A program made the position numbers and the translations under genes. A DNA stretch of 64,000 nt from Schumannella luteola (GTDB taxonomy: Bacteria; Actinomycetota; Actinomycetes; Actinomycetales; Microbacteriaceae). The stretch lies in contig NZ_JACBZY010000001.1 in the NCBI RefSeq assembly GCF_013408685.1, positions 1,488,001 through 1,552,000 on the forward strand. The letters run 5' to 3'. The stretch's first letter is position 1. Every line of letters starts with the position of its first letter. Below, in pieces: positions 8,204-59,377 of the stretch. The notes beneath the pieces were generated by a model. The model saw only the letters and a program-made list of their open reading frames with translations. It made no database searches and had not been told where the DNA came from.

Positions 8204-8294
8204 CCCGCCCCGGGCTGTCCGCCCCGCCGCGCGGTGACGGCGGCGACCGGCGTTCGTGCATCCGGCTGACCGGAGACGCACATCCTGGTCGCGG

Positions 8295-9068: not shown

Positions 9069-9082
9069 GCCGGCGCCGGGCG
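9052..9082. terminator. Hairpin spanning the DedA stop codon
   Basis: Arms 9052-9065 and 9069-9082 pair over 14 bp with one mismatch. The 3-nt loop is the TGA stop of the upstream gene. It lies between convergent genes. No U-tract follows. Confidence 0.6.
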
Positions 9083-9107
9083 AGCAGCGCGAGAGACGAC
9101 CCGGGGG

Positions 9108-18625: not shown

Positions 18626-18656
18626 CGCGTCAGGGCCGCGTCAGGAGCGCGTCAGG
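18626..18656. repeat. Three 11-bp tandem repeats carrying the stop codon of the mannosyltransferase gene
   Basis: CGCGTCAGG occurs at 18626, 18637 and 18648, a period of 11. On the minus strand each copy contains TGA. The copy at 18652-18654 is the stop codon of the gene, and the later two fall in the other two frames. Confidence 0.9.
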
Positions 18657-20984: not shown

Positions 20985-21465
20985 GCGGCGCGGCGATCGC
21001 AGCATCGGCGTCGTGCATCGCATCCTCGGCCGCCTCGACCGGGGTGTGCGGCGCGAACACCCACACGCGGTACAGCCAGAAGCGGAACACGGTGCCGAGG
21101 GCGAGGCCGACGACGTTGCCGGCGATGTTGTCGGCGACGACGTTGTCGAAGCCGAGCGCGTAGCGCGAGATCCAGAGGCAGCCGAGGCCGATCAGCAGAC
21201 CGCCGACGCTGACGACGCCGAACTGCAGGCCCTCGCGCCAGATGCGCGGGCCGCGGTGCTCGCGGAACGTCCAGAAGCGGTTGCCGATCCAGTTCGCCAC
21301 GATCGCGACGGTGGTCGAGATCGTCTTCGCGATCAGCGGGCCCTCGTGCAGGTTCGCGGGGTGCAGCACGGTCGCGCTGAGCAGGTTGAACAGGCCGACG
21401 TCGATGACGAAGCCCACGCCGCCGACGACGCCGAAGCGCAGCAGCTGCGAGATCAGGCGGCGCAT
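20869..21465 (-). CDS. GtrA-like flippase family membrane protein
   Basis: A 198-aa protein with four hydrophobic segments. It has the GtrA hallmarks RFGVVGGVGFVIDVGLFNLL at the N-terminus, ISTTVAIVANWIGNRFWTFREH, and the fourth helix ending in FRFWLYRVWVF. Family members help flip polyprenyl-phosphate sugars. After about residue 147 a 50-residue Ala/Ser/Pro-rich tail follows, encoded inside the opposite-strand PH-domain gene. The ATG at 21465 has a strong Shine-Dalgarno sequence (GGAAGAGGAG) and a TAGACT -10 box. The mannosyltransferase at 18652 could supply the lipid-linked sugar (inference). Confidence 0.87.
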   Translation of the reverse strand: MRRLISQLLRFGVVGGVGFVIDVGLFNLLSATVLHPANLHEGPLIAKTISTTVAIVANWIGNRFWTFREHRGPRIWREGLQFGVVSVGGLLIGLGCLWISRYALGFDNVVADNIAGNVVGLALGTVFRFWLYRVWVFAPHTPVEAAEDAMHDADAAIAAPLSPAAASSPDASPARRRVGRVRRSAAASAPAASAPRPD

Positions 21466-38692: not shown

Positions 38693-40828
38693 ATGACAGC
38701 GCAGCAGGATGGAACGCGTCGACGGCGATGGATGCGCCGATCGGTCATCGCGCAGGCCGCGGTCGCGCTCGCAGCGGTCGTGCTGGGCACCCTGATGCCG
38801 CTCGCGCAGACCGAGTCGGCCGAGGCCGCGAACGCGGCTGACTTCGACCCCGGCTACCTCATCGACGACGCGATCTTCTACGACGCGAGCTCGATGAACT
38901 ACCTCGACGTGCAGTCGTTCCTCAACTCGCGCGTCGGCACCTGCCAGGCCGGACGCACCTGCCTGAAGGGCTACGCGCAGGTCACCACGACCATCCCCGC
39001 CGACCGCTACTGCTCGGGCTACTCCGGCAGCTCGTACGACACCGCGGCGATGATCATCGACAAGGCGGCCCGCGCCTGCAGCATCAACCAGCGTGCGCTG
39101 CTGGTGCTGCTCGAGAAGGAGCAGGGCATCGTCTCGTCGACCGGACCGAGCCAGCGTGCCTACGACGCCGCCACGGGCTTCGGCTGCCCCGACACGGCGC
39201 CCTGCGACCCCAACGTGGGCGGCTTCTACTACCAGGTGTACTACGCCGCCCGGCAGTTCCAGATCTACAAGGCCAACCCGAACAGCTTCAACCACCGCGC
39301 CGGCACGACCAAGAACATCCTGCTCAACCCGAACGCGGGATGCGGCACGAAGAGCGTCTACATCTACAACAACGCCACCGCCGGCCTCTACAACTACACG
39401 CCCTACACGCCCAACGCCGCGGCGATGGGCAACCTCTACGGCATCGGCGACGGCTGCTCCTCCTACGGCAACCGCAACTTCTGGCGCATCTTCACCGACT
39501 GGTTCGGCAACCCGCTGCGCTACGAGGTCGCGCCCGGATTCGCCTGGTACTACGACGCCCGCGGCGGCGCGAACGGCGTCATGGGCGCCGCCACCGGCTA
39601 CCTCACGCGCGACGAGTCGAACGGGGGCGGCTACTTCCAGCGCTTCCGCAACGGCATCCTCTACACGAGCGCCGGAGGCACCGCCTTCGTGTTCAACAAC
39701 GAGTTCATGACCAAGTACGCGTCGCTCTACGCGCAGTCGGGCGGCACCGGCTGGCCGACCTCTGAGCAGGTCTGCGCCACGAACGGCATCTGCTACCAGA
39801 GCTTCACCGGCGGCACCATCGTCGCCGCGCCGACGATCGGCGCCCGTGTGATCTACGGCGGCATCGCGACCGCGTGGCTCAAGGGCGGCGGTCCCACCGG
39901 CCCGCTCGGCGCACCCATGAGCGACACCGAGTACGCGACCAATTCGGGTTCGGCGGGCTGGGTGCAGGACTTCCAGTGGGCCTACTACTCCGCCAGCAAC
40001 TTCGGGTCGTACGCGGTCTCGAAGTCGACCACCGGCAGCAGCTGGATCGCTTACGGCGGCATCGGCGGCACGCTCGGCTGGCCGACGAGCGACTACCGCT
40101 GCGTGGGAGCCTCGTGCGCTCAGGACTTCCAGAACGGCGCGCTGTCGACGACCAAGCAGTGGGGCAGCCACGCGATCCTATGGGGCTACGCTTCGCTGTG
40201 GCGGGCGCAGGGCGGGCTCGACTCGCTCGGCGCCGCGTTCGACGACCTGCGCGCGAGCAACGCCGCGGGGGGCGGCTGGATCCAGCAGTTCGAGAAGGCC
40301 GCGATCGTGCAGACCACGGCGGGCACGGTCACCCGGTTCCCGTATGACTTCTTCTACGGCTACTGGTATCAGACGGGTGGCGAGCGCGGCTCGCTCGGCT
40401 GGCCGATCGCCGCGCAGCAGTGCGCCGCGAACGCCTGCGCCGAGCGGTTCACCAACGCGGTCGTCACGGTGCGGCCCAACGGCAGCCCCCTCCTCGTGAT
40501 CGGCGGTCTCGCCGGTGCGTGGGATGCGGCCGGCGGCATCGCCAAGGTCGGCCCGGCCATCTCGGGCACCCGCTACAGCACGGCCAACGGCGGTGGATGG
40601 GTTCAGGAGTTCACCGCGGGTACCATTACGCAGGTGTCGAACGGCTCCCCCCTGTTCAGCCCGACAGGCCCGATCCTCACGTCGTGGAAGAGCTACGGCG
40701 CCGAGGCGACCTGGCTCGGCTGGCCCACATCCGCCCCCACCTGCTCGGCGAACGGCTGCGTTCAGAACTTCCAGAACGGCGTCGGCCGCTCTGATGCGAA
40801 CGGTGCCGTCCGGTTCACGACCTCGTGA
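38693..40828 (+). CDS. Secreted LGFP-repeat protein with N-terminal lysozyme-like module
   Basis: A 711-aa exported protein. The signal peptide is basic (GTRRRRWMRRS) then hydrophobic, with cleavage near AEAANA at about residue 45. Residues 50-285 form a cysteine-rich module (INQRALLVLLEKEQGIV, YDAATGFGCPDTAPCD, GYNRNFWRIF-like end) that looks like a lysozyme-type fold; the glutamate of LEKEQG would be the candidate catalytic residue (tentative). The rest is about eight LGFP repeats of ~50 residues, with markers GWPTS, GPLGAP, LGWPTS, SLGAAF, LGWPIA and LGWPTSA. LGFP repeats bind cell-wall glycans in actinobacteria. Its stop overlaps the acyltransferase start, so the two are coupled. Confidence 0.85.
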   Translation: MTAQQDGTRRRRWMRRSVIAQAAVALAAVVLGTLMPLAQTESAEAANAADFDPGYLIDDAIFYDASSMNYLDVQSFLNSRVGTCQAGRTCLKGYAQVTTTIPADRYCSGYSGSSYDTAAMIIDKAARACSINQRALLVLLEKEQGIVSSTGPSQRAYDAATGFGCPDTAPCDPNVGGFYYQVYYAARQFQIYKANPNSFNHRAGTTKNILLNPNAGCGTKSVYIYNNATAGLYNYTPYTPNAAAMGNLYGIGDGCSSYGNRNFWRIFTDWFGNPLRYEVAPGFAWYYDARGGANGVMGAATGYLTRDESNGGGYFQRFRNGILYTSAGGTAFVFNNEFMTKYASLYAQSGGTGWPTSEQVCATNGICYQSFTGGTIVAAPTIGARVIYGGIATAWLKGGGPTGPLGAPMSDTEYATNSGSAGWVQDFQWAYYSASNFGSYAVSKSTTGSSWIAYGGIGGTLGWPTSDYRCVGASCAQDFQNGALSTTKQWGSHAILWGYASLWRAQGGLDSLGAAFDDLRASNAAGGGWIQQFEKAAIVQTTAGTVTRFPYDFFYGYWYQTGGERGSLGWPIAAQQCAANACAERFTNAVVTVRPNGSPLLVIGGLAGAWDAAGGIAKVGPAISGTRYSTANGGGWVQEFTAGTITQVSNGSPLFSPTGPILTSWKSYGAEATWLGWPTSAPTCSANGCVQNFQNGVGRSDANGAVRFTTS

Positions 40829-43116: not shown

Positions 43117-44361
43117 TCAGGAGGTCGCGGACTCGCGGGTCGTGACGCGCGCCGCGACCGTGCCGACCGACGACTCGCTGCCGCTCACGTGCAGCAGAGC
43201 TGCCTGCCAGAGGATCGACGAGGTGCCCTCGGCGAAGTCCTCGGCGCGGGCGTTGATGAAGTAGTCGCCGACGCCGAAGTTCAGCTCCTCGATGTCGAAG
43301 TCGACATCCCAGGTGTCGCCGGCGCGGTGGGAGGTCGCCGGCGCCTTCAGACGGTCGGTGCTGGTGCCGAGCACCATCTGGCCGTTCGGGGTGTCGATGC
43401 CGAACCCGGTCATCCAGTCGTCGACGTCCCCGTTCGCGGTGAGGTGCAGGCGCAGCGTCACCGACGAGCCCTGGCGCACCTTCGTGGTCTCGTTGCCCTC
43501 GGCGTCGAAGACGGTCGCCTTAACGACCTGCACGCGGCTCTCGGCCTCGTCGTCGTCCTCGTCCTCGATCGGCGTGCCCGCGGCCGCGGCCGCCGCCGCG
43601 GCGTCGGCACGACGGTCGCGCTCGAGCAGATCGCGCAGCACGCCGAGCCCCTCGAGGGTGTCGCCGGCGAAGGCCACCGCGCCCGAGTCGAGCACGAAGG
43701 TCGTGTCGCAGAGCTCCTGGATCTGCGCCGCGGCGTGGCTGACGAGGATGATCGTTCGGCCCTCGCGCTGGAAGCTGCGGATCTTGTCCATGCACTTGCG
43801 CTGGAAGGCCTCGTCGCCGACAGCCAGCACCTCGTCGACGAGCAGGATGTCGGGGTCGGTGTGCACGGCGACCGCGAAGGCCAGGCGCATGAACATGCCC
43901 GAGGAGTAGAACTTGACCTCGTTGTCGATGAACTCGCGGATGCCCGAGAACTCGACGATGTCGTCGAAACGCTCGTCGATCTCGCTGCGCGAGAGACCGA
44001 GCAGCGTGGCGTTGAGGTAGACGTTCTCGCGGCCGCTGAGGTCGGGGTGGAAGCCGGCGCCGAGCTCGAGCAGCGCGGCGATGCGCCCGCGGATCTGCAC
44101 CGAGCCGGAATCGGGGGAGAGGATCCCGCCGATCAGCTTGAGCAGCGTGCTCTTGCCCGAGCCGTTCGCGCCGAGCAGCCCGACGGTGGTGCCGGCGTGG
44201 ATGCTGAGGCTGATCCCGTCGGCGGCGGTGTAGCTGGTGCGGTGCCGGCGTGCGCGCGCGAAGGTGAGCACCCGGTCCTTGAGCGTGTTGTCCTTGCGCA
44301 CGACGAAGGCCTTGCGCACGTCGTCGAGGCGCACGACCTCCGGGGCGGTGGTCTCGGTCAT
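43117..44361 (-). CDS. Polysaccharide ABC exporter ATPase with Wzt-type C-terminal domain
   Basis: A 414-aa ATPase of the TagH/Wzt class. The nucleotide-binding domain (to about residue 235) has Walker A GANGSGKST, ELGAGFHPDLSGRENVYLN, signature FYSSGMFMRLAFAVA, Walker B DILLVDEVLAVGD and switch LVSHAA. A linker rich in Ala and acidic residues (DAAAAAAAAG, DEDDDEAES) leads to a beta-sandwich C-terminal domain of about 140 residues. In Wzt proteins this domain reads the terminal modification of the exported polymer. ATG at 44361 shares one base with the stop of the permease gene (TGATG), so the subunits are coupled. Confidence 0.93.
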   Translation of the reverse strand: MTETTAPEVVRLDDVRKAFVVRKDNTLKDRVLTFARARRHRTSYTAADGISLSIHAGTTVGLLGANGSGKSTLLKLIGGILSPDSGSVQIRGRIAALLELGAGFHPDLSGRENVYLNATLLGLSRSEIDERFDDIVEFSGIREFIDNEVKFYSSGMFMRLAFAVAVHTDPDILLVDEVLAVGDEAFQRKCMDKIRSFQREGRTIILVSHAAAQIQELCDTTFVLDSGAVAFAGDTLEGLGVLRDLLERDRRADAAAAAAAAGTPIEDEDDDEAESRVQVVKATVFDAEGNETTKVRQGSSVTLRLHLTANGDVDDWMTGFGIDTPNGQMVLGTSTDRLKAPATSHRAGDTWDVDFDIEELNFGVGDYFINARAEDFAEGTSSILWQAALLHVSGSESSVGTVAARVTTRESATS

Positions 44362-45275
44362 CACAGCTCCTGTGCCACGTTGCCCTGGCGGCGCTGGAAG
44401 ACCCACTGCGCGAAGGCCAGGAAGACGAGTCCGATCAGGCCGGCGATCAGCATCCGCTCCCACAGGTCACCCGGGTAGTCGGCGGCGGTGCCGCCGCCCC
44501 AGAGCGAGCGGTGGAAGCCGAGCACGGCGATCGTGATCGGGTTCGAGGTGTAGACGTCGAGGATCCAGGTCGGCAGGTGGAACTCGCCGATGACGTCGGA
44601 GACGCGGCGCCACGAGTAGACGATCGGGGCGCTCCACATGAGCAGGGTGAGCACGATCTCGGTGATGTACTGCACGTCGCGCAGATAGACGTTGAGCACC
44701 GAGAGCAGCAGTCCGAAGCCGAGCGCGTAGATGAGGATCAGCAGGATCGACGGCACGAGGTAGCCGATGCCGCTGAAGTCGGGCCAGGCGCCCGAGAACA
44801 CGATCGCGCCGACGAGCACGACGAACTGCATGCCCACGAGGAACAGCGCCCCGCCGACCGAGGCGAGCGGGAACACCTCGCGCGGCACGTAGATCTTCTT
44901 CACCAGGCCGGCGTTGTTGACGATCGAGCCGGCGGCGGCGCCGACGCTCTCGGAGAAGAGGGCGTAGATCGTGAGGCCCGAGAAGACGTAGATCGCGAAG
45001 TCCTCGATGCCGCGGGCGGCGCCGAGGATCTGCCCCAGCACCAGGTAGTAGGTGGCGAGCATCACGAGCGGCTTGATGAGCGTCCAGAGGAAGCCGAGAG
45101 CGCTGCCGCGGTAGCGCACCTGGAGGTCGCGTCGGGTCAGCAGCCAGAGCAGCTGCCGGTGCTGGAGGATCTCGCGGATCCGGGCCACCGGGTGGAGCCC
45201 GCCGCGCGCGCCCTGACCGGTCACCGAGCGCATCGGCGTCGCAGACAGGCGCTCGAATCGCGCCTCAGCTGTCAC
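44361..45275 (-). CDS. Polysaccharide ABC exporter permease (TagG/Wzm type)
   Basis: A 304-aa ABC-2 permease with a cytoplasmic N-terminus (HRQLLWLLTRRDLQVRYRGSALGFLWTLIKPL, the family signature) and about six membrane helices. It ends with a short cytoplasmic tail. It forms the channel for the ATPase encoded directly downstream, exporting an undecaprenyl-linked polymer across the membrane. GTG start at 45275. A -10 box (TATATT) overlaps that of the divergent SDR gene. Confidence 0.93.
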   Translation of the reverse strand: MTAEARFERLSATPMRSVTGQGARGGLHPVARIREILQHRQLLWLLTRRDLQVRYRGSALGFLWTLIKPLVMLATYYLVLGQILGAARGIEDFAIYVFSGLTIYALFSESVGAAAGSIVNNAGLVKKIYVPREVFPLASVGGALFLVGMQFVVLVGAIVFSGAWPDFSGIGYLVPSILLILIYALGFGLLLSVLNVYLRDVQYITEIVLTLLMWSAPIVYSWRRVSDVIGEFHLPTWILDVYTSNPITIAVLGFHRSLWGGGTAADYPGDLWERMLIAGLIGLVFLAFAQWVFQRRQGNVAQEL

Positions 45276-46221: not shown

Positions 46222-46785
46222 ATGCCTCTCGAATACGGAAAGCCGCTGCGCGCGCACGAGACCCCGATCCCGGGCGTGCTGCTGATCGACCTCCCCGTCC
46301 ACGGTGACAACCGCGGCTGGTTCAAGGAGAACTGGCAGCACGAGAAGATGACCGCGATCGGCCTGCCCGACTTCGGGCCGGTGCAGAACAACATCTCGTT
46401 CAACGACGCGGTCGGCACCACGCGAGGCATCCACGCCGAGCCCTGGGACAAGTTCATCTCGATCGCCTTCGGCCGCGTCTTCGGCGCGTGGGTCGACCTG
46501 CGCCCCGGCGACTCCTTCGGCACCGTCTTCACGACCGAGCTCGACCCGTCGACGGCGATCTACATCCCGCGCGGGGTCGGCAACTCGTACCAGACGCTCG
46601 AGCCGAACACGGCGTACACCTACCTGGTCAACGACCACTGGAGCGCCGAGGCGCAGGGGGAGTACACCTTCCTCAACCTCGCCGACGAGGAGGCCGCGAT
46701 CGCGTGGCCCATCCCGCTCGACCAGGCGGAGCTGTCGGAGAAGGACAAGGCGCACCCGCGTCTCAGCGAGCTGCGCTCGATCTGA
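46222..46785 (+). CDS. rmlC: dTDP-4-dehydrorhamnose 3,5-epimerase family protein
   Basis: A 187-aa cupin of the RmlC family, which epimerises C3 and C5 of dTDP-4-keto-6-deoxyglucose on the way to dTDP-rhamnose. Visible are DNRGWFKENWQ, VQNNISFNDAVGTTRGIHAEPWDKF (catalytic His71, probable basic residue Lys77) and AIYIPRGVGNSYQTLE. The segment after the His is shorter than in the Salmonella enzyme, and the usual GFAHGF loop reads GVGNSY, as in an actinobacterial subgroup. It may therefore act on a related sugar. It pairs with the SDR gene upstream. The stop codon starts a three-copy 17-bp repeat. Confidence 0.85.
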   Translation: MPLEYGKPLRAHETPIPGVLLIDLPVHGDNRGWFKENWQHEKMTAIGLPDFGPVQNNISFNDAVGTTRGIHAEPWDKFISIAFGRVFGAWVDLRPGDSFGTVFTTELDPSTAIYIPRGVGNSYQTLEPNTAYTYLVNDHWSAEAQGEYTFLNLADEEAAIAWPIPLDQAELSEKDKAHPRLSELRSI

Positions 46786-46832
46786 GCAGCGGCCGGCCCT
46801 GAGCAGTGGCTGGCACTGAGCGGTGGCTCGCT
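46782..46832. repeat. Three degenerate 17-bp tandem repeats starting at the rmlC stop codon
   Basis: CTGAGCAGCGGCCGGCC (46782-46798), CTGAGCAGTGGCTGGCA (46799-46815) and CTGAGCGGTGGCTCGCT (46816-46832). Each holds a TGA. Because the period is 17, the three TGAs (46783, 46800, 46817) fall in three different frames. Confidence 0.9.
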
Positions 46833-46895
46833 CCGAGCTGACGCCCGCGCACGACCCGAGCCAGGGGCCGTTCGCGCCGGACGCCGGCCCGCGTC

Positions 46896-47816
46896 TCAGG
46901 CCTGCGTCAGCGCGCGGAACTCGTCGTAGTCGCGGATGTAGTCCGCGTCTTCGTAGGGGCGCGACGCGAAGACGGCGAGCACCGCATCCGGGCTGTAGTT
47001 GTACTGCGTGCCCCAGGTGAGCGGCGGCATGTGCAGGCCGAGCCCGGGGGAGTCGAGCACGTACTCAGCGCGGGTGGCGCCGTCGTCGACGATGCACGAG
47101 ACGCTGCCGTGCACGGCGACGAGGAACTGGTGGCACCGGCGGTGCGCGTGCTCGCCGCGCACCTCCTTCGAGGGCACGCCGTAGACGAAGAACACGCGCT
47201 GCGCGGTGAAGGGGAGGCTGCCGGGCAGATCGAGCGGCAGCAGGTCGCCGCGCGCGTCGCCGAAGGTCTTCAGACGGTGGATGCGCGCATCCGCCTCGGG
47301 GTCGGCCGTGACGGTCTCGACCGTCGTGCGCTGCTGCGGGGTCTCGGCGTAGCCGACGATGCGGCCGGGATTGCCGACGACGATCGCGTAGGGCGGCACG
47401 TCCTTGGTGACGACGGCGCCGGCGCCGATCATCGCGCGACGGCCGATGCGCACGCCCGGGAGGATGACCGCTCCGCCGCCGATCGAGGCGCCGTCTTCGA
47501 CGACGGTCTGCGCGAACGACTCGGGATACTGCTTGCTGCGCGGGAACGGATCGTTGGTGAAGGTCGCGTTCGGGCCGACGAAGACGTCGTCACCGAGACG
47601 CAGGCCGTCCCAGACCTGCACGCCCGACTTCAGCGTGACGCGGTCGCCGATCACGACGTCGTTCTCGACGAAGACGTGGTCGTTGATGTTGACGTCGCTG
47701 CCGATCTTCGCGCCCGGCAGCACGTGCGAGAAGGCCCACACGCGGCTCCCGGGTCCGACATCCGTGCTCTCGCAGATCCCCTGCGGGTGCACGAAGTACT
47801 CGGTCGGCTCGGTCAC
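46896..47816 (-). CDS. Bifunctional dTDP-hexose N-acetyltransferase / 3,4-ketoisomerase (WxcM-like fusion)
   Basis: A 306-aa fusion. Residues 1-165 form a left-handed beta-helix acyltransferase ([66 protein letters not shown]). Residues 178-306 form a cupin like FdtA/QdtA ([39 protein letters not shown] with the catalytic His pair). FdtA-type domains convert dTDP-4-keto-6-deoxyglucose to the 3-keto isomer, and the helix domain N-acetylates the 3-amino sugar made by the DegT enzyme at 49176. Both steps flank the aminotransferase reaction. GTG at 47816 overlaps the GtrA stop (GTGA). Confidence 0.88.
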
Positions 47817-48253
47817 ACGTTCTCCTCACGTCGGCGCTCTCGAAAGACTAGTCGCCCGGCGACGAAGCCGAGGGGCGCCGTGGCGACGACGCTGAGCGCG
47901 TTCGTCCAGTGCGGCCAGCCGAGCAGGTGCATGAGCTGCACCACGCCGAGGCCGACGACGTAGATCACGAGGTAGCTGCCGGCGTAGAGGGCCGTCGCCT
48001 TCCACGAGCCCTCGCGGGTGAAGACCCAGCGGCTCGCCATGATCGAGTTGAAGATCAGGCCGGCGGCGAAGACGATCGTGTAGGCCAGCCAGCCGGGCAT
48101 CAGATAGCTCAGCACGACCAGCAGCGCCGTCGTGATCAGCGTGTTCGTGCCGCCGACGATGAGGAAGCGCCAGGCGGAGGCGCCGACGCTGCGCTGACCC
48201 GAGGGGCCGACGTCCTGCGGTGCGTCGGGATCGGGGATGACCGGCTCGGTCAC
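47813..48253 (-). CDS. GtrA-like flippase family protein
   Basis: A 146-aa protein with four hydrophobic helices and the GtrA pattern [31 protein letters not shown] and [18 protein letters not shown]. GtrA proteins are thought to flip polyprenyl-phosphate-linked sugars made by GtrB. It lies directly between the GtrB-like gene and the sugar-modifying fusion gene, with 4-bp GTGA overlaps on both sides. GTG at 48253 is chosen for the overlap; another GTG one codon upstream is possible. It is distinct from the GtrA protein at 20869. Confidence 0.88.
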
Positions 48254-49179
48254 CACGACTCGTGCGACATGACGATCGACGACGGGCGCTGCTTCGTGTT
48301 CTCGAAGATGCGCCAGATGTAGGCGCCCACGATGCCCAGCGAGGTCATGATCAGGAACGTCGAGAACAGGATCGCGAGCATGAGCGGCACGTAGCCGGGC
48401 TCGCTGATGCCGCCGGCCAGATAGAAGCCGAGCACGACGATGCCGACCACCAGCACGACGAAGGCGCCGATCACGCCCGCCGCGAGCAGCAGGTCGAGCG
48501 GCAGGTTCGTAAACGAGAACACGCTGTCGAGCAGGTAGCGCACGCGCTTGCGGAAGGTCCAGCTGCTCGAGCCGTGCTCGCGCTCCTGGCGGCTGTAGGG
48601 CACCTCGACGCGGCGGAAGCCGACCCAGTAGAGCTGGGCGACCAGGCTCGAGTTGGCTTCGCCGAGCGCGACCAGCTGCTGCGCCACCTGGCGCGTGCAG
48701 CCGAATACGTCGACACCGCCCGGGGGCAGGTCGCGGATGATCGCCCGGCGGTAGAAGCCCCAGAAGATCTTCGAGTTCAGGCTCGACATCGCCGGGTCGT
48801 CGCGGGCCATGCGGCGGCCGACGGCGACATCCACCGACCCCGAGGCCAGCGCGCGCTGGAACTCGACCATGAGCTCCGGCGGCTCCTGCAGGTCGGCCGC
48901 CATGACGCCGATCGTCGCGCCGTTCGCGGCGGCGAGGCCGGTGCGGATCGCGGCGAAGGAGCCGAAGTTGCGCGAGTGCTGCAGCAGCTGCGAGCTGAAG
49001 CCCGCCGTCGGCAGAGCGGCGGCGAGCAGCTCGTACGAGCGGTCGGGGGACCCGTCGACGACGAAGACGACCTCGGTCGCCTCCGGCAGATCGGCCATCA
49101 GCTCCGACAGGCGGGCGACGAGGTGCGGGATGTTCTCCTCGTTGCCGTAGACCGGGATGACGATCGAGAAGTCGGTCAC
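48250..49179 (-). CDS. GtrB/DPM1-like polyprenyl-phosphate glycosyltransferase
   Basis: A 309-aa GT2 enzyme with two C-terminal membrane helices. Motifs are FSIVIPVYGNEENIPHLV, VFVVDGSPDRSYELL, HSRNFGSFAAIRTGL, MAADLQEPPELM (metal-binding Asp) and VDVFGCTRQV; the helices follow from about residue 230. This is the layout of bactoprenol glucosyltransferases, which load a sugar on undecaprenyl phosphate for later extracytoplasmic transfer. The donor may be the dTDP-acetamido sugar made by the neighbouring genes (inference). The GTG at 49179 overlaps the aminotransferase stop (GTGA). Confidence 0.88.
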   Translation of the reverse strand: MTDFSIVIPVYGNEENIPHLVARLSELMADLPEATEVVFVVDGSPDRSYELLAAALPTAGFSSQLLQHSRNFGSFAAIRTGLAAANGATIGVMAADLQEPPELMVEFQRALASGSVDVAVGRRMARDDPAMSSLNSKIFWGFYRRAIIRDLPPGGVDVFGCTRQVAQQLVALGEANSSLVAQLYWVGFRRVEVPYSRQEREHGSSSWTFRKRVRYLLDSVFSFTNLPLDLLLAAGVIGAFVVLVVGIVVLGFYLAGGISEPGYVPLMLAILFSTFLIMTSLGIVGAYIWRIFENTKQRPSSIVMSHESW

Positions 49180-50294
49180 GCGAGCGCTCCGAGAGCGGCG
49201 CCCACCGCATCCACCTCGTCGTCGGTGAGCTCGGGGAAGAGCGGCAGGCTCAGCACGGCGGCGCGGGCCGCGAGCGTGGCGGGCAGCTCGACGTCGGGCG
49301 CGAAGCGCGCGAAGGCGGGCTGCTCCCAGTCGGCGAGCGGGAAGTGGATGTCGGTCGGCACGCCGGCCGCCGCCAGCTGCTCGCGCACCGCGTCGCGCCG
49401 GGCGCTGCGGGCGATCGCCAGGTGGGCGACATGCTGCTCGCCCTCGGCCGGCAGCACCGTGAGCAGCTGCGGGTCGAGCGCCGCTGCGGCAGCGGCGTAG
49501 CGGCCGATGATCTCGCGACGCCGGGCGTTGAACTCGTCGATCTGACGCAGGCGGATGCGCAGGAACGCGGCCTGCAGCTCGTCGAGGCGCGAGTTGGTGC
49601 CGCCGGCGAGGGTCGCGTTGTACTTCGTCTCCCAGCCGTACTGGCGCAGCTGGCGCACGCGCGCCGCGATCTCCGGCGTCTCGGCGATGACGGCGCCGCC
49701 GTCGCCGATCGCGCCGAGGTTCTTGGTGGGGTAGAAGCTGATCGTCGCGGCGTGGCCGAAGGTGCCGGCCTTGCGTCCGTCGCGCGTCGCGCCGATGCCC
49801 TGCGCGACATCCTCGACCAGGGCCACGCCGCGCTCGTCGAGCAGCGCGCGGATCGCGGCGACGTCGCCGAGGTAGCCGTAGAGATGGGTGACGACGACGA
49901 CGCCGACGCTGTCGTCGAGGCGCGCCGCGATCGTCTCGGCGGTGAGGCAGAGGGTGACCGGGTCGATGTCGGCGTAGCGCGGCGTGAAGCCGGCGCGCAC
50001 CGTCGCGGTCGACGTGTAGGCGCCCGCGTTGCCGGCGGTCAGCACGACCGACTTGCCCTCCGGCATGACCGCCTTGATGGCGAGCTCGAGGGCGTCGGTG
50101 CCGCTCGCCACGCCGATCGCGTCGCCCGCGCCGAGGTAGTCGCGCAGCTCGGCCTCGAACGCGGCGTGCTGCTTGCCGTGGATGGCGTAGCCGGAGTCGA
50201 TCACCTCCGCCGTCGCCTCGAGGAGGGCGGCGCGGTCGCGGGCCATGCCGCGGGAGAGGTCGTTGAACGGGGCGACGCGTCGCACGTCAGTCAT
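49176..50294 (-). CDS. DegT/DnrJ/EryC1/StrS sugar aminotransferase (FdtB-like)
   Basis: A 372-aa PLP enzyme that aminates a keto-sugar nucleotide with glutamate. Features are VAPFNDLSRGMARDR, GYAIHGKQHAAFEAEL, GVASGTDALELAIKA, DPVTLCLTAETIAARL, VTHLYGYLGDV, LVEDVAQGIGA and the Schiff-base lysine in FYPTKNLGAIGDGGAV near residue 188. NSRLDELQAAFLRIRL follows. With the fused ketoisomerase/acetyltransferase at 46896 it fits FdtB/QdtB, giving a dTDP-3-amino-3,6-dideoxyhexose. ATG at 50294 lies inside the end of the preceding membrane-protein gene, an 8-bp overlap. Confidence 0.91.
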   Translation of the reverse strand: MTDVRRVAPFNDLSRGMARDRAALLEATAEVIDSGYAIHGKQHAAFEAELRDYLGAGDAIGVASGTDALELAIKAVMPEGKSVVLTAGNAGAYTSTATVRAGFTPRYADIDPVTLCLTAETIAARLDDSVGVVVVTHLYGYLGDVAAIRALLDERGVALVEDVAQGIGATRDGRKAGTFGHAATISFYPTKNLGAIGDGGAVIAETPEIAARVRQLRQYGWETKYNATLAGGTNSRLDELQAAFLRIRLRQIDEFNARRREIIGRYAAAAAALDPQLLTVLPAEGEQHVAHLAIARSARRDAVREQLAAAGVPTDIHFPLADWEQPAFARFAPDVELPATLAARAAVLSLPLFPELTDDEVDAVGAALGALA

Positions 50295-51774
50295 CCGAGT
50301 CCTTCCGGCTGAGGTAGATGTCCACGTCGCCCCCGGGGCGGTGGACCACGGTCTGGAGGCGCAGGTCGGTCCCGGTGTCATCGGGGTCGCACTCCACGCC
50401 GCCGCCCGGGATCTGATAGGGGTCGGTGGAGTCGAAGCACAACCATACCGGGGTGCTGTCCTGGTTCATCACCCGCGACGCCGAGCCCAGATACTGCAGC
50501 GGGAAGGTGAACTGCGTTCCGTAGGTGCCGGAGTGGTCGATGACGACCACGATCTCGTCGCCGCTCGCCTTCTTCACGATCGGCTTCAGCTCGGCGAGCA
50601 GCTGCTTCTGGGTCTGCATGGAGGGCTGCCAGTGCTGGATGCCGCGCACGACGCCGACGGCGGTGACCAGCAGCATCCCGATCGCGATGACGGTCTGCAC
50701 TCGCGGGCGTGCACCCGTCGACGTGAGCGGCCAGAGCAGCAGGCCGGCGACGAGCGCGAGCGTCGCGACGTAGCCGAGACGGTCGATGTCCTGCAGCCAG
50801 CCGACGTGGCCGAAGTAGACGATCGACGTCGCCGGACTGACCAGCGCGACGCCGGTGATGAGCCATCCCATCCGCTGCGACACGACGCCGCTGAGCGCGA
50901 GCACCGCGCCGAGCACGGCGAGGGCGAGGATGCCGGCCACCAGCGTCAGTCCGCTGCCGAGGTAGGTGTGCGCAACGTAGGTGACGAGCTCACGCGGGCT
51001 ACGCACCGCGGCCACGGCGATGTTGCCGGCCTCGTAGCTCTCGCCGCCCGGGTCGATCAGCATGGTGATGACGAGCGAGTAGAGCGTCATGAAGGCGCAG
51101 GTCGCCGTGATGACGACGACCGTCACGATGCGGCGCCGCCAGGACGCGCGCACCGCGAGCGCGAGCACGACCGCGAGCAGCGGGGCGGCGACGGCGGGGC
51201 CCGGGTACACGAGCAAGCCGACCAGCAGGGTGAGCGCGGCGGCGACGATCCAGCGCACCTGCCCGCGCAGCAGCCAGCGCAGGATCAGTCCCGCGGCGAT
51301 GAAGAAGGCGAGAGCCGCGGTCTGCGCCGGCAGGAAGCGCTGGAGGAAGCCGCCGGGCCAGAGGGGGTGCATCGCCACGACGAAGGCGATCGCGGTCGGC
51401 AGCCAGAAGGCGCGGCTGACGGCGCGCAGAGTCCAGATCACGACGAGGAACTGCGCGACCGCGACCGCGGCCAGCACGATGAAGATCGCCCCCGGCGCGC
51501 CCCCGCCGAGCGCGAGCCCGAGTTCGGTGAGCACGAGGTGCAGCGGGCGGCTCAGCGTCCACTGGCCGTAGTCGGAGGTGAAGGCGCCGGAACCGCCGGT
51601 GGTGAAGTCGACCGAGAGCGGCCACTCCTCGAGGAACGCGACCTCCCACGGACGGAAGTGCGCGGCGGCGACGAGCAGCGCGCCCAGCACGGTGACGGCG
51701 AGGTGCAGCGGCGCTGGCCGGGGCAGCGAGAGGCGGCGGGGCCGCGGTGCGGACGCGGTCGTGGTGTCAGTCAT
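50287..51774 (-). CDS. Polytopic membrane protein, copy 3 of a tandem paralogous family (putative GT-C glycosyltransferase)
   Basis: A 495-aa protein of unknown function with about ten membrane helices and a C-terminal soluble part (about residues 375-495). Just after the first helix is FRPWEVAFLEEW (Glu49-Glu50), identical in the two neighbouring copies. Further shared blocks are LSRPLHLVLT, MHPLWPGGFLQRFLPAQTA, VYPGPAVAAPLLA and TLYSLVITMLI. The tail has VIDHSGTYGTQFTFPLQY, SRVMNQDSTPVWLC and DIYLSRKDSDD. Acidic residues in the first outer loop are typical of GT-C enzymes, and the gene sits beside GtrA/GtrB, so a GtrC-like transferase is inferred. ATG at 51774 overlaps the upstream paralogue by 8 bp. 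Confidence 0.75.
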   Translation of the reverse strand: MTDTTTASAPRPRRLSLPRPAPLHLAVTVLGALLVAAAHFRPWEVAFLEEWPLSVDFTTGGSGAFTSDYGQWTLSRPLHLVLTELGLALGGGAPGAIFIVLAAVAVAQFLVVIWTLRAVSRAFWLPTAIAFVVAMHPLWPGGFLQRFLPAQTAALAFFIAAGLILRWLLRGQVRWIVAAALTLLVGLLVYPGPAVAAPLLAVVLALAVRASWRRRIVTVVVITATCAFMTLYSLVITMLIDPGGESYEAGNIAVAAVRSPRELVTYVAHTYLGSGLTLVAGILALAVLGAVLALSGVVSQRMGWLITGVALVSPATSIVYFGHVGWLQDIDRLGYVATLALVAGLLLWPLTSTGARPRVQTVIAIGMLLVTAVGVVRGIQHWQPSMQTQKQLLAELKPIVKKASGDEIVVVIDHSGTYGTQFTFPLQYLGSASRVMNQDSTPVWLCFDSTDPYQIPGGGVECDPDDTGTDLRLQTVVHRPGGDVDIYLSRKDSDD

Positions 51775-53269
51775 CCGATTCCGGCTTCCCGATGTAGATG
51801 TCGACCTCGCCACCCGGCAGATCGTAGCTGGAGACGAAGCGCGGATCCCGACCGGTGTCGGCGGTCGCGCAGAGGGTGCTGCCGCCGGTGACCGGGTCGC
51901 CCTTCTCGTAGCAGAGCCAGACCGGGGTGGCGTCGTCGTTCATGATGTGCGAGGCCGAGCTGATGTAGTGCTGCGGCAGCGTGTAGATCGCGCCGAACGT
52001 TCCCGAGTGGTCGACGACCACGACGATCTCATCGCCGTGCGCCTGCTCGACCGCCGGCTTCAGCTCCTGGAAGAGCTGGTGCTGCAGGGCGATGTACGGC
52101 TGCCAGTGCCGCACGCCGCGCACCCCGCCGACGACCGAGACCAGGATGACCACGGCCGCGATCACGGCGAGAGGCCGCAGCCGGAGACCGCTCATCCCGA
52201 TCGGCCAGAGCATCAGCGCGGCGGTGAGGCCGAGCGAGGTGGCGTACTCGATGCGGTCGATGTCGGCCAGCCACGCCACGTTGCCGAAGAAGACGACGGT
52301 GCACAGCGGGCTGACGAGCGCGGTCGCGGTGATCAGCCAGCCGACGGGATGCGGAACCGCGCCCGACAGGGCCAGCACGGCTCCGAGCGCGGCGACGGCG
52401 ATGACGGCGGCCACGACCGTGAGGCCGCTGCCGATCAGGGTCGAGCCGATCCGCTCGACGAAGTCGCGCGGACCGTGCACGCCGCCCTGCGCGATGTTGC
52501 CGGCCTCGTAGGTCTCGCCACCCGGTGCGATCAGCTTGGTGATGACGAGCGAGTAGACCGTCATCAGAGCCGAGGCGGCGACGACGACCACCACCGCGAC
52601 GATCCGTCGGCGCCAGGATGACGGGATCGACAGCGCGACGGCCACCGCCAGCAGCGGCGCGGCGGCTGCGGTGCCGGGGTAGACGCAGAGTCCCGCTATC
52701 AGCACGGCGAAGGTCGCCGCCATCCATCGCCGACGGCCGTCGAGCAGCCAGCGGATCAGGAACCCGGCGGCGACGACGAAGGTCAGCACGGCGGTCTGCG
52801 CGGGCAGGAAGCGCTGCAGGTAGCCGCCGGGGAAGAGCGGGTGCAGGGCGACGAACGCCGCGACCGCGAGAGAGACCCAAGGCGAGCGGCTCAGCGGGCG
52901 CAGAGCCCAGACCGTGAGCGCGGCCGTCGCGGCCGCGACGACGCCCATCACCGCGAAGATGCCGGCGGGCGAACCGCCGCCGATCGCGAGGCCGACGAGC
53001 GTCAGTACGAGGTGCAGCGGTCGGCTCAGGCTCCACTGCGCGTAGTTGTCGATCGTGCCGCCGAGCCCGACCTTGTCCCAGAGCTCGGCGATCGGCCACT
53101 CCTCGAGGAAGGCCACCTCCCACGGCCGGAAGTGCAGGGCGAACGCGACCACCGCGAGCGCCGCGAGCGCGATGCGCGGCGCCCAGCTGCGCACGAGGTC
53201 CCTGCGGTGCGTCGTCGACCTGGCCGACGACGAGGCGGAGGCGGGGAGCCGGGCTGCGGCGTCAGTCAT
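51767..53269 (-). CDS. Polytopic membrane protein, copy 2 of the tandem family (putative GT-C glycosyltransferase)
   Basis: A 500-aa paralogue of the proteins encoded at 50287 and 53262. The first helix (ALAALAVVAFALHF) is followed by FRPWEVAFLEEWPI (Glu56-Glu57), then LSRPLHLVLTLVGLAIGGGSPAGIFAVMG, MHPLFPGGYLQRFLPAQTAVL and VYPGTAAAAPLLAVA. The C-terminal extracytoplasmic part has VVDHSGTFGAIYTLPQHYI, SHIMNDDATPVWLCYEKGDP and the terminal VDIYIGKPESDD. It is closer to copy 1 than to copy 3 by eye, for example in the KGDP and GKPESDD blocks. ATG at 53269 lies inside the last codons of copy 1. Function is inferred only from context. Confidence 0.75.
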   Translation of the reverse strand: MTDAAARLPASASSSARSTTHRRDLVRSWAPRIALAALAVVAFALHFRPWEVAFLEEWPIAELWDKVGLGGTIDNYAQWSLSRPLHLVLTLVGLAIGGGSPAGIFAVMGVVAAATAALTVWALRPLSRSPWVSLAVAAFVALHPLFPGGYLQRFLPAQTAVLTFVVAAGFLIRWLLDGRRRWMAATFAVLIAGLCVYPGTAAAAPLLAVAVALSIPSSWRRRIVAVVVVVAASALMTVYSLVITKLIAPGGETYEAGNIAQGGVHGPRDFVERIGSTLIGSGLTVVAAVIAVAALGAVLALSGAVPHPVGWLITATALVSPLCTVVFFGNVAWLADIDRIEYATSLGLTAALMLWPIGMSGLRLRPLAVIAAVVILVSVVGGVRGVRHWQPYIALQHQLFQELKPAVEQAHGDEIVVVVDHSGTFGAIYTLPQHYISSASHIMNDDATPVWLCYEKGDPVTGGSTLCATADTGRDPRFVSSYDLPGGEVDIYIGKPESDD

Positions 53270-54722
53270 CCGACTCCGGCTTCCCGACGTAGATGTCGAC
53301 CTCGCCGCCGTTCACCTCGTAGGCGGTCACCAGCTGCAGGTCGGTGCCGGTGTCCTCCTGCTTGCAGAGGTTCGCGCCGGAGTTGGCCGGGTCGCCCTTC
53401 TCGTAGCAGAGCCAGACCGGGCTGTCGTCGTCGTTCATCACGTGCGCGGCGGCGGCGATGTAGTACTGCGGCAGCGTGTAGATGCCGCCGAAGGTTCCGG
53501 TGTGATCGACGATCGTGACGATGTCGTCGCCCTTCGCCTTCTGCATCGCCGGCTTCAGCTCCTGGAAGAGCTGGTGCTGCAGCGCGATGTAGGGCTGCCA
53601 GTGCCGAACGCCGCGCACCCCGCCGCCGATCGAGACGATCACGAGCAGCACCGCGACCACGGTGGTCAGGCGCGGCAGCGCCCCCGTCATGGTCGAGCCC
53701 CAGACCAGCAGGGCCGCGAGCAGCCCGAGCGAGGTCGCGTACTGGATGCGGTCGATGTCGACCAGCCAGGCGACATTGCCGAAGAAGACGAGAGTGCAGA
53801 GCGGGCTCACGATCGCGGTGCCCGCGATGATCCAGCCGGCGGTCGGTCGGATCGCGCCGGTCAGCGCCAGCACCGCACCGAGCACGGCGATGCCGATGAC
53901 GCCCGCCACGAGACTCAGGCCGTTCTCGATGAGGGTGCCGCCGACGAGCTCGATGAACTGCCGCGGGCCCTGCACCGCTCCGCCCAGGTTGCTCGTCTCG
54001 TAGGTCTGGGTGTCGGGCGCGATCAGGCGCGTGATGACGAGCGAGTAGAGCGTGACGAGGGCCGAGCTGGCGATCGCCGCCACCACCCCCGCGAGGCGCC
54101 GACGCCACGTCGTGTCGGCGGCGAGGCCGATGACCAGCGCCAGCAGGGGAGCCGCAACCGCGGTGCCCGGGTAGACGGCGAGGCCCAGCACGAGCGCCAG
54201 GAAGGTGCCGACCAGGTGACCACGCCGACCGTCGAGGAGCCAGCGCAGCAGCAGACCCGCCGCGATGACGAAGCCGAGGGTGGCCGTCTGCGCCGGCAGG
54301 AAGCGCTGCAGGTACCCGCCGGCGAAGAGCGGGTGCATCGCGGCGAAGGCGCCGATCGCGAGGCTCACCCAGAACGAGCGGGTGACCGGCCGCAGCGCCC
54401 ACACCGTGAAGACCACGAGAGCCGCCGCGACGAGGCCCATCATCGCGAAGATGCCGGCGGGCGAGCCGCCGCCGATGGCCAGACCGACGAAGGTGAGCAC
54501 CAGGTGCAGCGGGCGGCTCAGCGTCCAGCCCGAGGTCGACACGACACTGAGGAACCCGTCGTGCTGCCACTGATCGGCGAGCGGCCACTCCTCGAGGAAC
54601 GCCACCTCCCACGGCCGGAAGTGCAGGGCGAAGGCGACGAGGGCGACGACCGCCAGAGCCGCGGGCGCGAGCCATCGCGGCCCGGTCGGGATCGCGCTCG
54701 TCCGCACGCCGGAATCAGCCAC
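53262..54722 (-). CDS. Polytopic membrane protein, copy 1 of the tandem family (putative GT-C glycosyltransferase)
   Basis: A 486-aa protein, first gene of the operon running down to 46896. It has FRPWEVAFLEEWPLAD (Glu44-Glu45) after the first helix, LSRPLHLVLTFVGLAIGGGSPAGIF, MHPLFAGGYLQRFLPAQTATL, VYPGTAVAAPLLALV, TLYSLVITRLIAPD, and the tail TIVDHTGTFGGIYTLPQYYI, AHVMNDDDSPVWLCYEKGDP and VDIYVGKPESDD. The GTG at 54722 has GGGGAGGG upstream and a TAGACT -10 box, unlike copies 2 and 3, which start inside the preceding gene. No family name is recognised with certainty. Confidence 0.75.
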   Translation of the reverse strand: MADSGVRTSAIPTGPRWLAPAALAVVALVAFALHFRPWEVAFLEEWPLADQWQHDGFLSVVSTSGWTLSRPLHLVLTFVGLAIGGGSPAGIFAMMGLVAAALVVFTVWALRPVTRSFWVSLAIGAFAAMHPLFAGGYLQRFLPAQTATLGFVIAAGLLLRWLLDGRRGHLVGTFLALVLGLAVYPGTAVAAPLLALVIGLAADTTWRRRLAGVVAAIASSALVTLYSLVITRLIAPDTQTYETSNLGGAVQGPRQFIELVGGTLIENGLSLVAGVIGIAVLGAVLALTGAIRPTAGWIIAGTAIVSPLCTLVFFGNVAWLVDIDRIQYATSLGLLAALLVWGSTMTGALPRLTTVVAVLLVIVSIGGGVRGVRHWQPYIALQHQLFQELKPAMQKAKGDDIVTIVDHTGTFGGIYTLPQYYIAAAAHVMNDDDSPVWLCYEKGDPANSGANLCKQEDTGTDLQLVTAYEVNGGEVDIYVGKPESDD

Positions 54723-54739
54723 AGTCGCCCTCCCCGGGC

Positions 54740-54745
54740 AGTCTA
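54740..54745 (-). promoter_or_regulatory. -10 box TAGACT for the paralogue/Gtr/amino-sugar operon
   Basis: Minus-strand TAGACT ends 17 nt before the GTG at 54722, with GGGGAGGG between as ribosome site. Seven genes follow in one direction with overlaps only, down to 46896. Confidence 0.55.
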
Positions 54746-54808
54746 GGTTCGCGCGGGAGGATGCAGAGTGGTCTGCGGCGCGTGCCCGCCATCGGCGCCG
54801 GTGGTCGG

Positions 54809-56676
<1,868 letters not shown>

Positions 56677-56684
56677 GGGGGACC

Positions 56685-56690
56685 ATCCTG
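56685..56690 (-). promoter_or_regulatory. -10-like box CAGGAT for rmlAB
   Basis: Minus-strand CAGGAT ends 8 nt before the GTG at 56676. It departs from TAGGAT in the first base, and no -35 box is evident. Confidence 0.4.
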
Positions 56691-56726
56691 CCACGGCCTT
56701 CCCGCGAGTTCGAACGGCGCTCGCGT

Positions 56727-58049
56727 TCAGTCGGCCCGCGGGGCGTCTTCGAGGCCGGTGCCCTTCGGCGCCGAGAGCCGGTGCCGCCACGATCTCTTGC
56801 GGGCGGCGGCGAGTGCGCAGGTGACGAAGAGCAGCAGTCCGCCCTCGAACAGCAGGTAGCTCTCGGCGAGGCTCGTCGCCGCCAGCAGCACGAGCGCGAG
56901 CGCCGGCCAGGCGTAGGTGGTGTTCGGGTTCTCGGTGCCGACCAGCCAGGCCCGGGTGAGGGCGAGCGCGAAGGCGATGCCGAGCAGGACGACGCCGACG
57001 ATGCCGAGCTGGAAGTAGACGTCGAGCGCGCCGTTGAGCGCCGAGTCGTAGCGCTTGCCGTCGTCGTCGGCGAGCACGTTGTAGGGGAACACCTCGGGGC
57101 GCCAGACGCCGACCCAGCCCCATCCCTCGAGCTGGTGGAGCTCGGAGAGCTGCAGGATGCGGCTCCACTGCCCCGAGCGCGAGTCGAAGTCGCTCGTCGC
57201 GTTGAGCAGCTGGATGATGCGCCCGCGCAGCAGCCAGGCCGCGACCGCCCCGATCAGCACCACGCCGGCGACGACGAACTGCGCGATCGGACGCCGGCGC
57301 GCCGGCACCCGCCGCAGGGCGTACACGGCGACCGCGGCGACCCCGACGACGACGAGCACGACGAAGGTCACGGGCGAGCGCGCGAAGAGCAGGGTGACAG
57401 CGGCCAGCACGAGCGAGAAGATCGCGCGCGGCCGCTCGACGGAGCGCGTGCGCCACTCGGTCAGGAACGTGATGACGGCCAGACAGGCGAGGTAGCCGAG
57501 GTAGTTGCGGGTGCCCGCGATGCCCTGGATGGGGCCACCGCTCGCGATCGACCCGGTGATGCCGAAGACCTTGAGCGGCACGTCGAGGATGATGCCGCTG
57601 AGCACCTCGAGCACGAGCGAGGTGAGCAGGATCGCCCGCAGCGCATCCCCGAAGGCGCGGATCACCTGGATGAGATCGCGGGCGAGCGCGAGCCAGGTGC
57701 CGAGCAGCCCGAACAGCAGCGCGTAGACGACCGCGCCGGCCGTGATCCAGGTGTACTGGCTGAGGAAGACGCTGACGACCATCCAGCCGAAGAAGGCCAG
57801 CAGGCTGATCGGCAGCACGCCGCGCCACTCGATGCGCTCGCGCTGGCTCCACAGCGAGATGCCGGCCAGCACGAGCGTCGCCGTGAGCACGGCGAGCAGG
57901 CCGCCCCATCCCATGAGCGAGCGCAGGAAGGCCGAGGCGAGCGACGAGGTCGCGATGATGACCGCGAGCGCCTGGCTGGTGCGCGGATGCGCGATCAGCT
58001 CCACGACGATGAGTCGCCGCGGTGCCGGGGTCGCCGCACGGCCGCTCAC
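56727..58049 (-). CDS. O-antigen ligase/polymerase-like membrane protein
   Basis: A 440-aa protein with about ten to twelve membrane helices and one large outer loop (about residues 280-350: [25 protein letters not shown]). This loop, with RSGQW and the following GWGW, is the pattern of Wzy/WaaL-fold enzymes that polymerise or ligate undecaprenyl-linked glycans. GTG at 58049 overlaps the stop of the upstream homologue (GTGA). The C-terminus ends in a basic stretch (RKRSWRHRL). Whether it polymerises, ligates or transfers cannot be told from sequence. Confidence 0.82.
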
Positions 58050-59377
58050 TGTCCCCGCTCTCCGCGGCGCAGCCAGCGGAAGGTGCGCAGGTCGCGCGAG
58101 CGGGTCGTGATCGCGATGATCACGAGCAGCAGCAGCTCGCCTTCGATGAGGATGCGGCTCTCGGCGAGGCTCTGCACCAGCAGCGCCACGGCGATCAGGA
58201 GCGGCGCGATCGTGAGCGCCGCCACCGGACGGGTGCCGGCGGTGATGGCCGAGTCGGCAGCGGCGCCGCGGTCGACGGCGGCGAGCCAGCTGCGCACCAG
58301 CAGGCCGAGCACGAAGAGCGCGAAGACGATCAGGCCGACGATGCCGACCTGCAGCCACAGGTCGAGCCAGGCGTCGTGCGCCTGGCTGTAGCGCACGCCC
58401 TTGATCACGAAGGCGTCGGAGTCGAAAGGGTGCACGCCCGGCATCCAGTAGGTCGCCCAGCCCCAGCCGCCCGCGGGGCGCTGCTGGGCGAGGTCGACGA
58501 CGGCCTTCCAGATCTGGCCGCGGTTGGTGAGGTCGGGGCTCTTCTGCAGCAGCGCCAGCAGCGGTGCGCGGAAGACGATCGCGCCCGCGACGCCGGCCAC
58601 GACGACCGCGGCCGAGACGCCGTAGGCCGCCGCGCGGGCTCGCCCGCTGAGGCGCCGGATCACGAGCACGATCACGAGCACCACGGCCGCCGCGAGACCG
58701 GCGACGATGACGGTCGACGAGCGGGTGAGCGCGAGCACGAGCACCGCGACGCCGATCCAGAAGATGCCGGCGACCCGGCTCACCATCCCGGCCGCGAGCT
58801 GCACGCCGAAGGCGATGAGCGCGATGAGCGCCGCGATCGCCAGCAGGTTGCTGTTGCCCTGGATGCCCTGGATGCGGCCGCCGTGGAAGAGCAGGTCGCG
58901 CGACCAGTAGCAGGCGCGCGGGATGTCGCCCGAGAGGTCGCAGAAGCTGAAGAACGGCAGTACCTTCTGCCGCACGAAGACCGCGACGACGAACTCGAAC
59001 AGCAGCGACAGCCCGAGGATCCAGCGGCCCGCGTCGGCGAGCGCCCTGACGATGCCGTAGCCGTCGAGCGCGGTCGCGATGAAGAGGCCGACGGCGACGG
59101 TCGCGACCGTGACGACGGTGGCGAGACCGGTCAGCGCCGGGTAGGCGGACCAGGCGGTGGAGGCGGCGCAGACCCCGAGGAACAGCACGAGCGCCACCGG
59201 CACGGCGTCGAGGCGGGTGCGGCTGCGCACGAGCTCGATCACGCAGAGCAGCACGATCAGCCCGACGACGACGCCCCATCCGGCCCAGCCGATGCCGTAG
59301 CGGAACACGTCGCCGGCGAGGCCCGTGAAGAAGGCGGACGCGGCGAGGGCGCGGTGGTAGCGGCTCGACAGCGTCAT
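58046..59377 (-). CDS. O-antigen ligase/polymerase-like membrane protein, second copy
   Basis: A 443-aa homologue of the protein encoded just downstream, with similar topology. The large loop has [30 protein letters not shown] near residues 285-315, followed by [22 protein letters not shown], a very typical WaaL/Wzy segment. A second loop near residue 145 carries several cysteines ([17 protein letters not shown]) not seen in the other copy. ATG at 59377 is preferred over an upstream in-frame codon. It ends the glycan locus; the next gene is the conserved acyl-CoA dehydrogenase. Confidence 0.83.

Follow-up and report, generated by a model that had tools for sequence, protein, structure and literature searches.

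The 64,000-nucleotide stretch of Schumannella luteola DNA analysed here (hereafter the window) carries seven minus-strand genes which, by the coordinates of their open reading frames, overlap end to end from position 54722 to 46896. They encode three related GT-C-like membrane proteins, designated A (53262–54722; 486 amino acids, GTG start), B (51767–53269; 500 amino acids) and C (50287–51774; 495 amino acids), followed by a DegT/DnrJ/EryC1 aminotransferase that probably acts at C3 (49176–50294), a GtrB-type polyprenyl-phosphate glycosyltransferase (48250–49179), a GtrA-type flippase (47813–48253) and an FdtD-like fusion of a hexapeptide N-acetyltransferase with a 3,4-ketoisomerase (46896–47816). 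Start codons are our own choice, GTG being taken for A and for each of the last three genes. All six junctions overlap, by 8 nucleotides each at A/B, B/C and C/aminotransferase and by 4 nucleotides at each of the remaining three, in agreement with an earlier note on this DNA that had described seven overlapping genes. The single promoter assumed there found no such support: sigma-70-like sites in 46750–56800 numbered 0 against 0.4 expected, in a type of genome where such scans say little, and the promoter and terminator scan was uninformative. Genes for an RmlB-like deoxythymidine diphosphate (dTDP)-glucose 4,6-dehydratase (54809–55807, minus strand; PF16363/PF01370) and an RmlA-like glucose-1-phosphate thymidylyltransferase (55807–56676, minus strand; PF00483, E 4.5e-75) lie directly upstream on the same strand, rmlB 86 nucleotides from A and rmlA abutting rmlB; the transcription unit may therefore be longer than seven genes.

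Proteins A, B and C share 51–64% pairwise identity, far beyond chance, with B being 64% identical to A. The description of three membrane proteins of about 490 residues with a common loop motif and C-terminus was borne out in each of them: all three contain FLEEW, and they end in DIYVGKPESDD, DIYIGKPESDD and DIYLSRKDSDD. They have a positive N-terminus, and the glutamate pair, as part of an EEW motif invariant in all seven copies of the family found (see below), directly follows helix 1. The seven copies have 136 invariant alignment columns, among them (C numbering) E44, E49, E50, E248, D329, D413, D439, D466 and the C446/C462 pair. These two cysteines belong to a C-terminal soluble domain and give a hint that it may lie outside the cell. 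The earlier note did not recognise the family, and indeed neither Pfam nor NCBIfam holds a model matched over its cut-off by A, B or C; the named GT-C Pfam families YfhO and PMT-2 were matched neither by these three proteins nor by two of their relatives in other genomes.

The predicted fold of the family was approached with two AlphaFold models, of C and then of B, built from alignments of five rows. In Foldseek searches against the PDB, the first 12 matches of the C model were GT-C enzymes (OST/STT3, PglB, DPY19, ALG6 and AftD; E 0.018–0.45, probability 0.69–1.00), and the first five matches of the B model were OST or PglB (E 0.10–0.77, probability 0.54–0.69). The chains matched belong to GT-C families. 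Lower matches were mostly unrelated and of low probability, although two more GT-C enzymes (Pmt1-Pmt2 and GPI mannosyltransferase I) occurred among the 50 matches listed for the C model. A GT-C fold of A, B and C is likely on these models, short of proof because no Foldseek match reaches E 0.001. As far as it was run, the structure comparison left the GT-C proposal of the earlier note unrefuted, with GT-C enzymes as the best matches but with weak E-values and TM-scores and low-confidence models.

The remaining four genes of the row, together with rmlA and rmlB, point to the synthesis and membrane transfer of an amino sugar. The aminotransferase (PF01041, E 1.7e-82) is matched by 24 PDB sequences at E up to 1e-30; the best of them, 7b0d (E 1.2e-67), is annotated as glutamine–scyllo-inositol transaminase and is followed by 2oga, which we take to be DesV, 7n63, QdtB (3frk), 5u1z and WbpE. 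DesV, WlaRG (5u1z) and WbpE are described as C3-aminotransferases, and ArnB and PerA as C4 enzymes, in PMC7725333. ArnB and perosamine synthetase also match the aminotransferase, more weakly than the C3 enzymes, and the protein therefore probably acts at C3. The fusion protein (hexapeptide repeats PF00132, E 1.2e-24; FdtA domain PF05523, E 3.8e-45) matches 4mzu, a WxcM-like bifunctional ketoisomerase/N-acetyltransferase, over both domains in phmmer (E 4.3e-101). Domain content and domain order agree between the two proteins, and the one studied here stands beside GtrA and GtrB. We take 4mzu to be FdtD.

According to PMC2943079, the route to dTDP-Fuc3NAc comprises five enzymes, and in the ketoisomerases His at the FdtA His95 position marks inverting and Arg retaining enzymes. 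Both the fusion protein and 4mzu carry Gly at the His95 position, and the fusion protein keeps FdtA His49 and His51. The Gly residue favours neither Fuc3NAc nor Qui3NAc. Homologues of all five enzymes of the dTDP-Fuc3NAc/dTDP-Qui3NAc pathway (RmlA, RmlB, 3,4-ketoisomerase, C3-aminotransferase and N-acetyltransferase) are present in the locus, and Fuc3NAc and Qui3NAc are the most likely identities of the sugar. Our lean towards Fuc3NAc comes solely from the resemblance to 4mzu and from its presumed product.

Both a GT-A-type synthase (GtrB; PF00535, E 2.6e-18) and a GtrA flippase (PF04138, E 4e-12, over the cut-off) of multi-component glycosylation systems are found by Pfam. The best PDB match of GtrB is sll0501 (E 1.1e-43), which we take to be a GtrB; NCBIfam matches to PgfS and ArnC stay below their cut-offs. 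With the donor enzymes assigned by curated families and PDB matches, the proposal that the row encodes extracytoplasmic glycosylation and brings its own genes for an amino sugar finds support. GtrA matches in the whole genome amount to six pieces, two of which are halves of one frame, leaving five places; the seven-gene system is therefore probably one of several GtrA systems. The strongest GtrA match of the genome is a second gene of this type within the window (21055–21438, minus strand); it and a GT2 gene (18652–19410, minus strand) lie apart from the gene row.

Seven copies of the A/B/C family were found in four genomes: three in the window, two in the genome G1346 and one each in L004, an Actinomycetes metagenome-assembled genome, and L005, Microbacterium rhizomatis. 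A contig scan with two strict peptide patterns recovered two loci beyond the genome of the window, L004 and L005, and a whole-genome search gave one strong copy in each of the latter; L004, L005 and G1346 were the three carriers in a sample of 295 genomes from the genus of L005. The family profile had no match in 98 relatives or in the 397 other genomes of the family sample, and among 58 genomes around that of L004 the family occurred in the L004 genome only. Plasmids, phages and viral contigs held no relative when searched with A alone and with the two strict patterns. Weak profile matches in six of 395 other phylum-sample and three of 395 other order-sample genomes (E 0.0007–0.0086) were attributed to chance, given how many genomes were searched. 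The samples overlap, and those of the family, phylum, order and L005 genus had three to five first-look candidates scored per genome, so that weak relatives may be missed. All seven copies, in all four genomes, share their locus with GtrA, GtrB and sugar genes; as far as it was run, the co-occurrence check named in the earlier note thus did not refute its proposal.

In each of the four carriers, a family member stands directly before the aminotransferase, GtrB, GtrA and FdtD-like fusion genes. L004 and L005 have this donor cassette in the order of the window, with 58–81% identity for the four cassette proteins, with rmlA and rmlB upstream and with an RmlC-like enzyme, an epimerase-like protein, Wzm and Wzt downstream. 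RmlA and RmlB hold the same place in all four carriers, and the glycan ABC exporter of the window, a Wzt-like ATPase with a Wzt_C domain and a Wzm-like permease (43117–45233, minus strand; PF00005 + PF14524, PF01061), also has counterparts in L004, L005 and G1346, again close to the system. In G1346 the copy in the slot before the cassette lies at about 14245–15693 of the locus L027 (minus strand), and its second copy at about 8061–9497 (plus strand), past the opposite end of the cassette and flanked by two membrane proteins of a second family.

This second family, characterized by FVYDAAQYW near the first helix and with no Pfam match over cut-off, has one member each beside the cassette in L004 and L005 and two in G1346 (L004: 14736–16133; L005: 14853–16169; L027: 6414–7796 minus and 9559–10875 plus); one member follows the cassette in L004 and in L005, and the L005 member has one sub-cut-off match to an NCBIfam putative glycosyltransferase. 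It is absent from the window between the fusion and the RmlC-like gene (46785–46896), and a search of the window's genome gave no match, an empty answer that alone shows little. A profile comparison of A/B/C with this family was not significant (E 0.31). Three of 299 family-sample genomes carry the fusion itself at E 1e-60 or better, namely the window's own, G028 and G023. In both of the latter, a membrane protein of about 740 amino acids with no Pfam match over cut-off precedes the same cassette (L020: 12636–14855; L021: 4868–7090). We presume it to resemble YfhO, which no Pfam match over cut-off supports. Judged by position, it looks as if the terminal transferase had been exchanged before a constant donor cassette.

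Two further features were seen around the row. Two adjacent tandem Wzy_C (O-antigen-ligase-like) proteins are encoded upstream of rmlA (56727–58049 and 58046–59377). A 698-residue protein with LGFP repeats (38732–40828) adjoins an acyltransferase-SGNH protein and has a relative at the locus end in L004 and L005.

Relationships among the seven proteins were examined in an unrooted maximum-likelihood tree (LG+G4, 100 bootstraps). Protein C groups with the copies that occupy the slot in L004, L005 and G1346 (bootstrap 99; 100 on the C-terminal domain and 77 on the membrane part), A pairs with B (support 100), and the second G1346 copy falls between these groups; it, A and B stand outside the slot group. 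Midpoint rooting places it with A and B, although the data alone leave the root unfixed. Its position is not firm because its identities are close to one another (63% with B, 59% with the slot copy of its own genome, and 56% with each of A and C) and support on the membrane part is lower. The two groups are separated more by the C-terminal domain (43–54% identity between groups versus 52–70% within) than by the membrane part (53–63% versus 56–72%). The simplest reading of these sequences would be two old types, one of them kept in the slot, with A and B resulting from a later duplication; an exchange of copies between genera is possible. Synonymous rates between copies were computed and proved unusable with the strongly GC-biased codon use.

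We propose, with moderate confidence, that one donor serves three GT-C-type transferases, each with its own position or acceptor in a surface glycan. RmlA and RmlB would produce dTDP-4-keto-6-deoxyglucose, the ketoisomerase domain of the fusion would move the keto group to C3, the aminotransferase would aminate C3, and the hexapeptide domain would acetylate the product to a dTDP-3-acetamido-3,6-dideoxyhexose (Fuc3NAc or Qui3NAc). GtrB would then transfer the sugar to polyprenyl phosphate, and GtrA would let the lipid-linked sugar reach the outer face of the membrane. There, A, B and C would use it as GT-C-type transferases, and their invariant glutamate pair, in the first outer loop, would lie at the active site. 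A separate acceptor or position for each of the three is plausible; judging by the neighbourhood, the acceptor may perhaps be the glycan exported by the adjacent Wzm/Wzt. The donor cassette would form the constant part of such a system and the set of GT-C enzymes its variable part.

Several observations weigh against this proposal. Even at E values up to 1, Pfam has no family matching A, B or C, or the L004 and L005 copies, and no PDB sequence matches the three proteins; B has a match to the NCBIfam transporter model NupC at E 9e-4, which at 18 bits against a cut-off of 442 we took as chance between membrane proteins. The outer-loop motif is EEW rather than a classical DxD. Simple hydropathy predicts 12, 11, 10, 10 and 12 helices in five proteins of the family, counts that leave the side of the C-terminal domain unfixed. 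The models, from alignments of five sequences, have a mean predicted local distance difference test score of 61 (C) and 53 (B), and the GT-C matches have TM-scores of 0.17–0.42, below 0.5. The slot argument draws on gene position, and the profile comparison of A/B/C with the slot protein of about 740 amino acids was not significant (E 0.092). The tree is unrooted, and A, B and C could also act as a complex or redundantly.

That the family belongs to another class altogether, such as polymerases, ligases or transporters that handle this glycan, would agree with the missing sequence match to any known transferase and with the weak structure matches. We regard it as quite unlikely, as both models rank GT-C enzymes first, the two O-antigen-ligase-like proteins are encoded separately, and GtrA/GtrB systems need a terminal transferase, for which the cassette holds no other candidate. 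A single hetero-oligomeric transferase, with one catalytic subunit and the others binding acceptor or donor, draws some credit from the 8-nucleotide overlaps of the three genes, which suggest coupled translation, and from a speculation in PMC8035078 that a small GT-C enzyme might depend on a partner protein to recognise its acceptor. One copy nevertheless seems to suffice in L004 and L005, which hold the same cassette, and with the glutamate pair invariant in all seven copies none looks like a dead subunit; we consider such an oligomer unlikely.

To much the same degree we doubt that A, B and C act in sequence, each adding this amino sugar through a different linkage to a short, growing side chain, though a shared donor and acceptors changing with chain growth would fit diverged paralogues. 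Plain redundancy, in which tandem duplication left copies that serve dosage or act as spares, appears quite unlikely as well: A and B are indeed adjacent, 64% identical and paired in the tree, but they differ at 36% of aligned residues, C differs from both at 46–49%, and a copy outside the slot group also sits apart from the slot in G1346.

Multi-component transmembrane glycosylation systems combine a GT-A synthase, a GtrA flippase and a GT-C transferase that is poorly conserved between systems (PMC8035078). The Gram-positive systems CsbB/GtcA/YfhO, CsdAB/CflA and GtsABC are alike in using a synthase, a GtrA flippase and a large membrane transferase for surface glycans; unlike them, the row studied here has three tandem paralogous transferases with one synthase and flippase, donor biosynthesis genes in the same row and a transferase family without a Pfam model. 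The "new system" of the earlier note was overstated, since such systems are well known, while a system with its own sugar genes and an unnamed GT-C-like family stands.

Listeria monocytogenes serotype 4b (GttA with GttB and GtlB; PMC8035078, Table 1) is already listed with one synthase and two GT-C enzymes for different acceptors, wall and lipoteichoic acid, although there the GT-C genes are far apart by their gene numbers rather than in tandem and the sugar is galactose. Streptococcus mutans perhaps provides another precedent: according to PMC11754754, GT-C enzymes of SccN/SccM and SccP/SccQ decorate different positions of one polymer, and the SccN donor serves two positions, the second via an unidentified enzyme. 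It differs in having two synthases and two anomeric donors, with SccM and SccQ each paired with its own (PMC11754754). The open-licence literature yielded no paper on three GT-C paralogues in tandem that share a single GtrA/GtrB, and none on Fuc3NAc in a system of this kind, which does not show that none exists. What differs here is the unnamed candidate transferase family, its three tandem members on what would be one donor, and the copy-number variation among relatives.

A rare amino sugar is probably attached to surface polymers by three related but differing enzymes of an undescribed family, where known systems usually have one per donor. In lactic acid bacteria, phage binding can be decided by how surface polymers are decorated. 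How the GT-C enzymes of these systems choose their acceptors is poorly understood. If our reading is true, the family would provide GT-C enzymes without a public model, together with a natural series in which constant donor genes are accompanied by one, two or three copies; such a series would allow a direct test of how transferase sequence relates to acceptor position. More tentatively, we suggest a modular surface-glycan code, in which a constant donor cassette is combined with an exchangeable and expandable set of GT-C enzymes from at least two unnamed families, A/B/C and the second membrane-protein family beside the cassette, so that gain or loss of the transferase, and not of the donor, would change the positions that are decorated.

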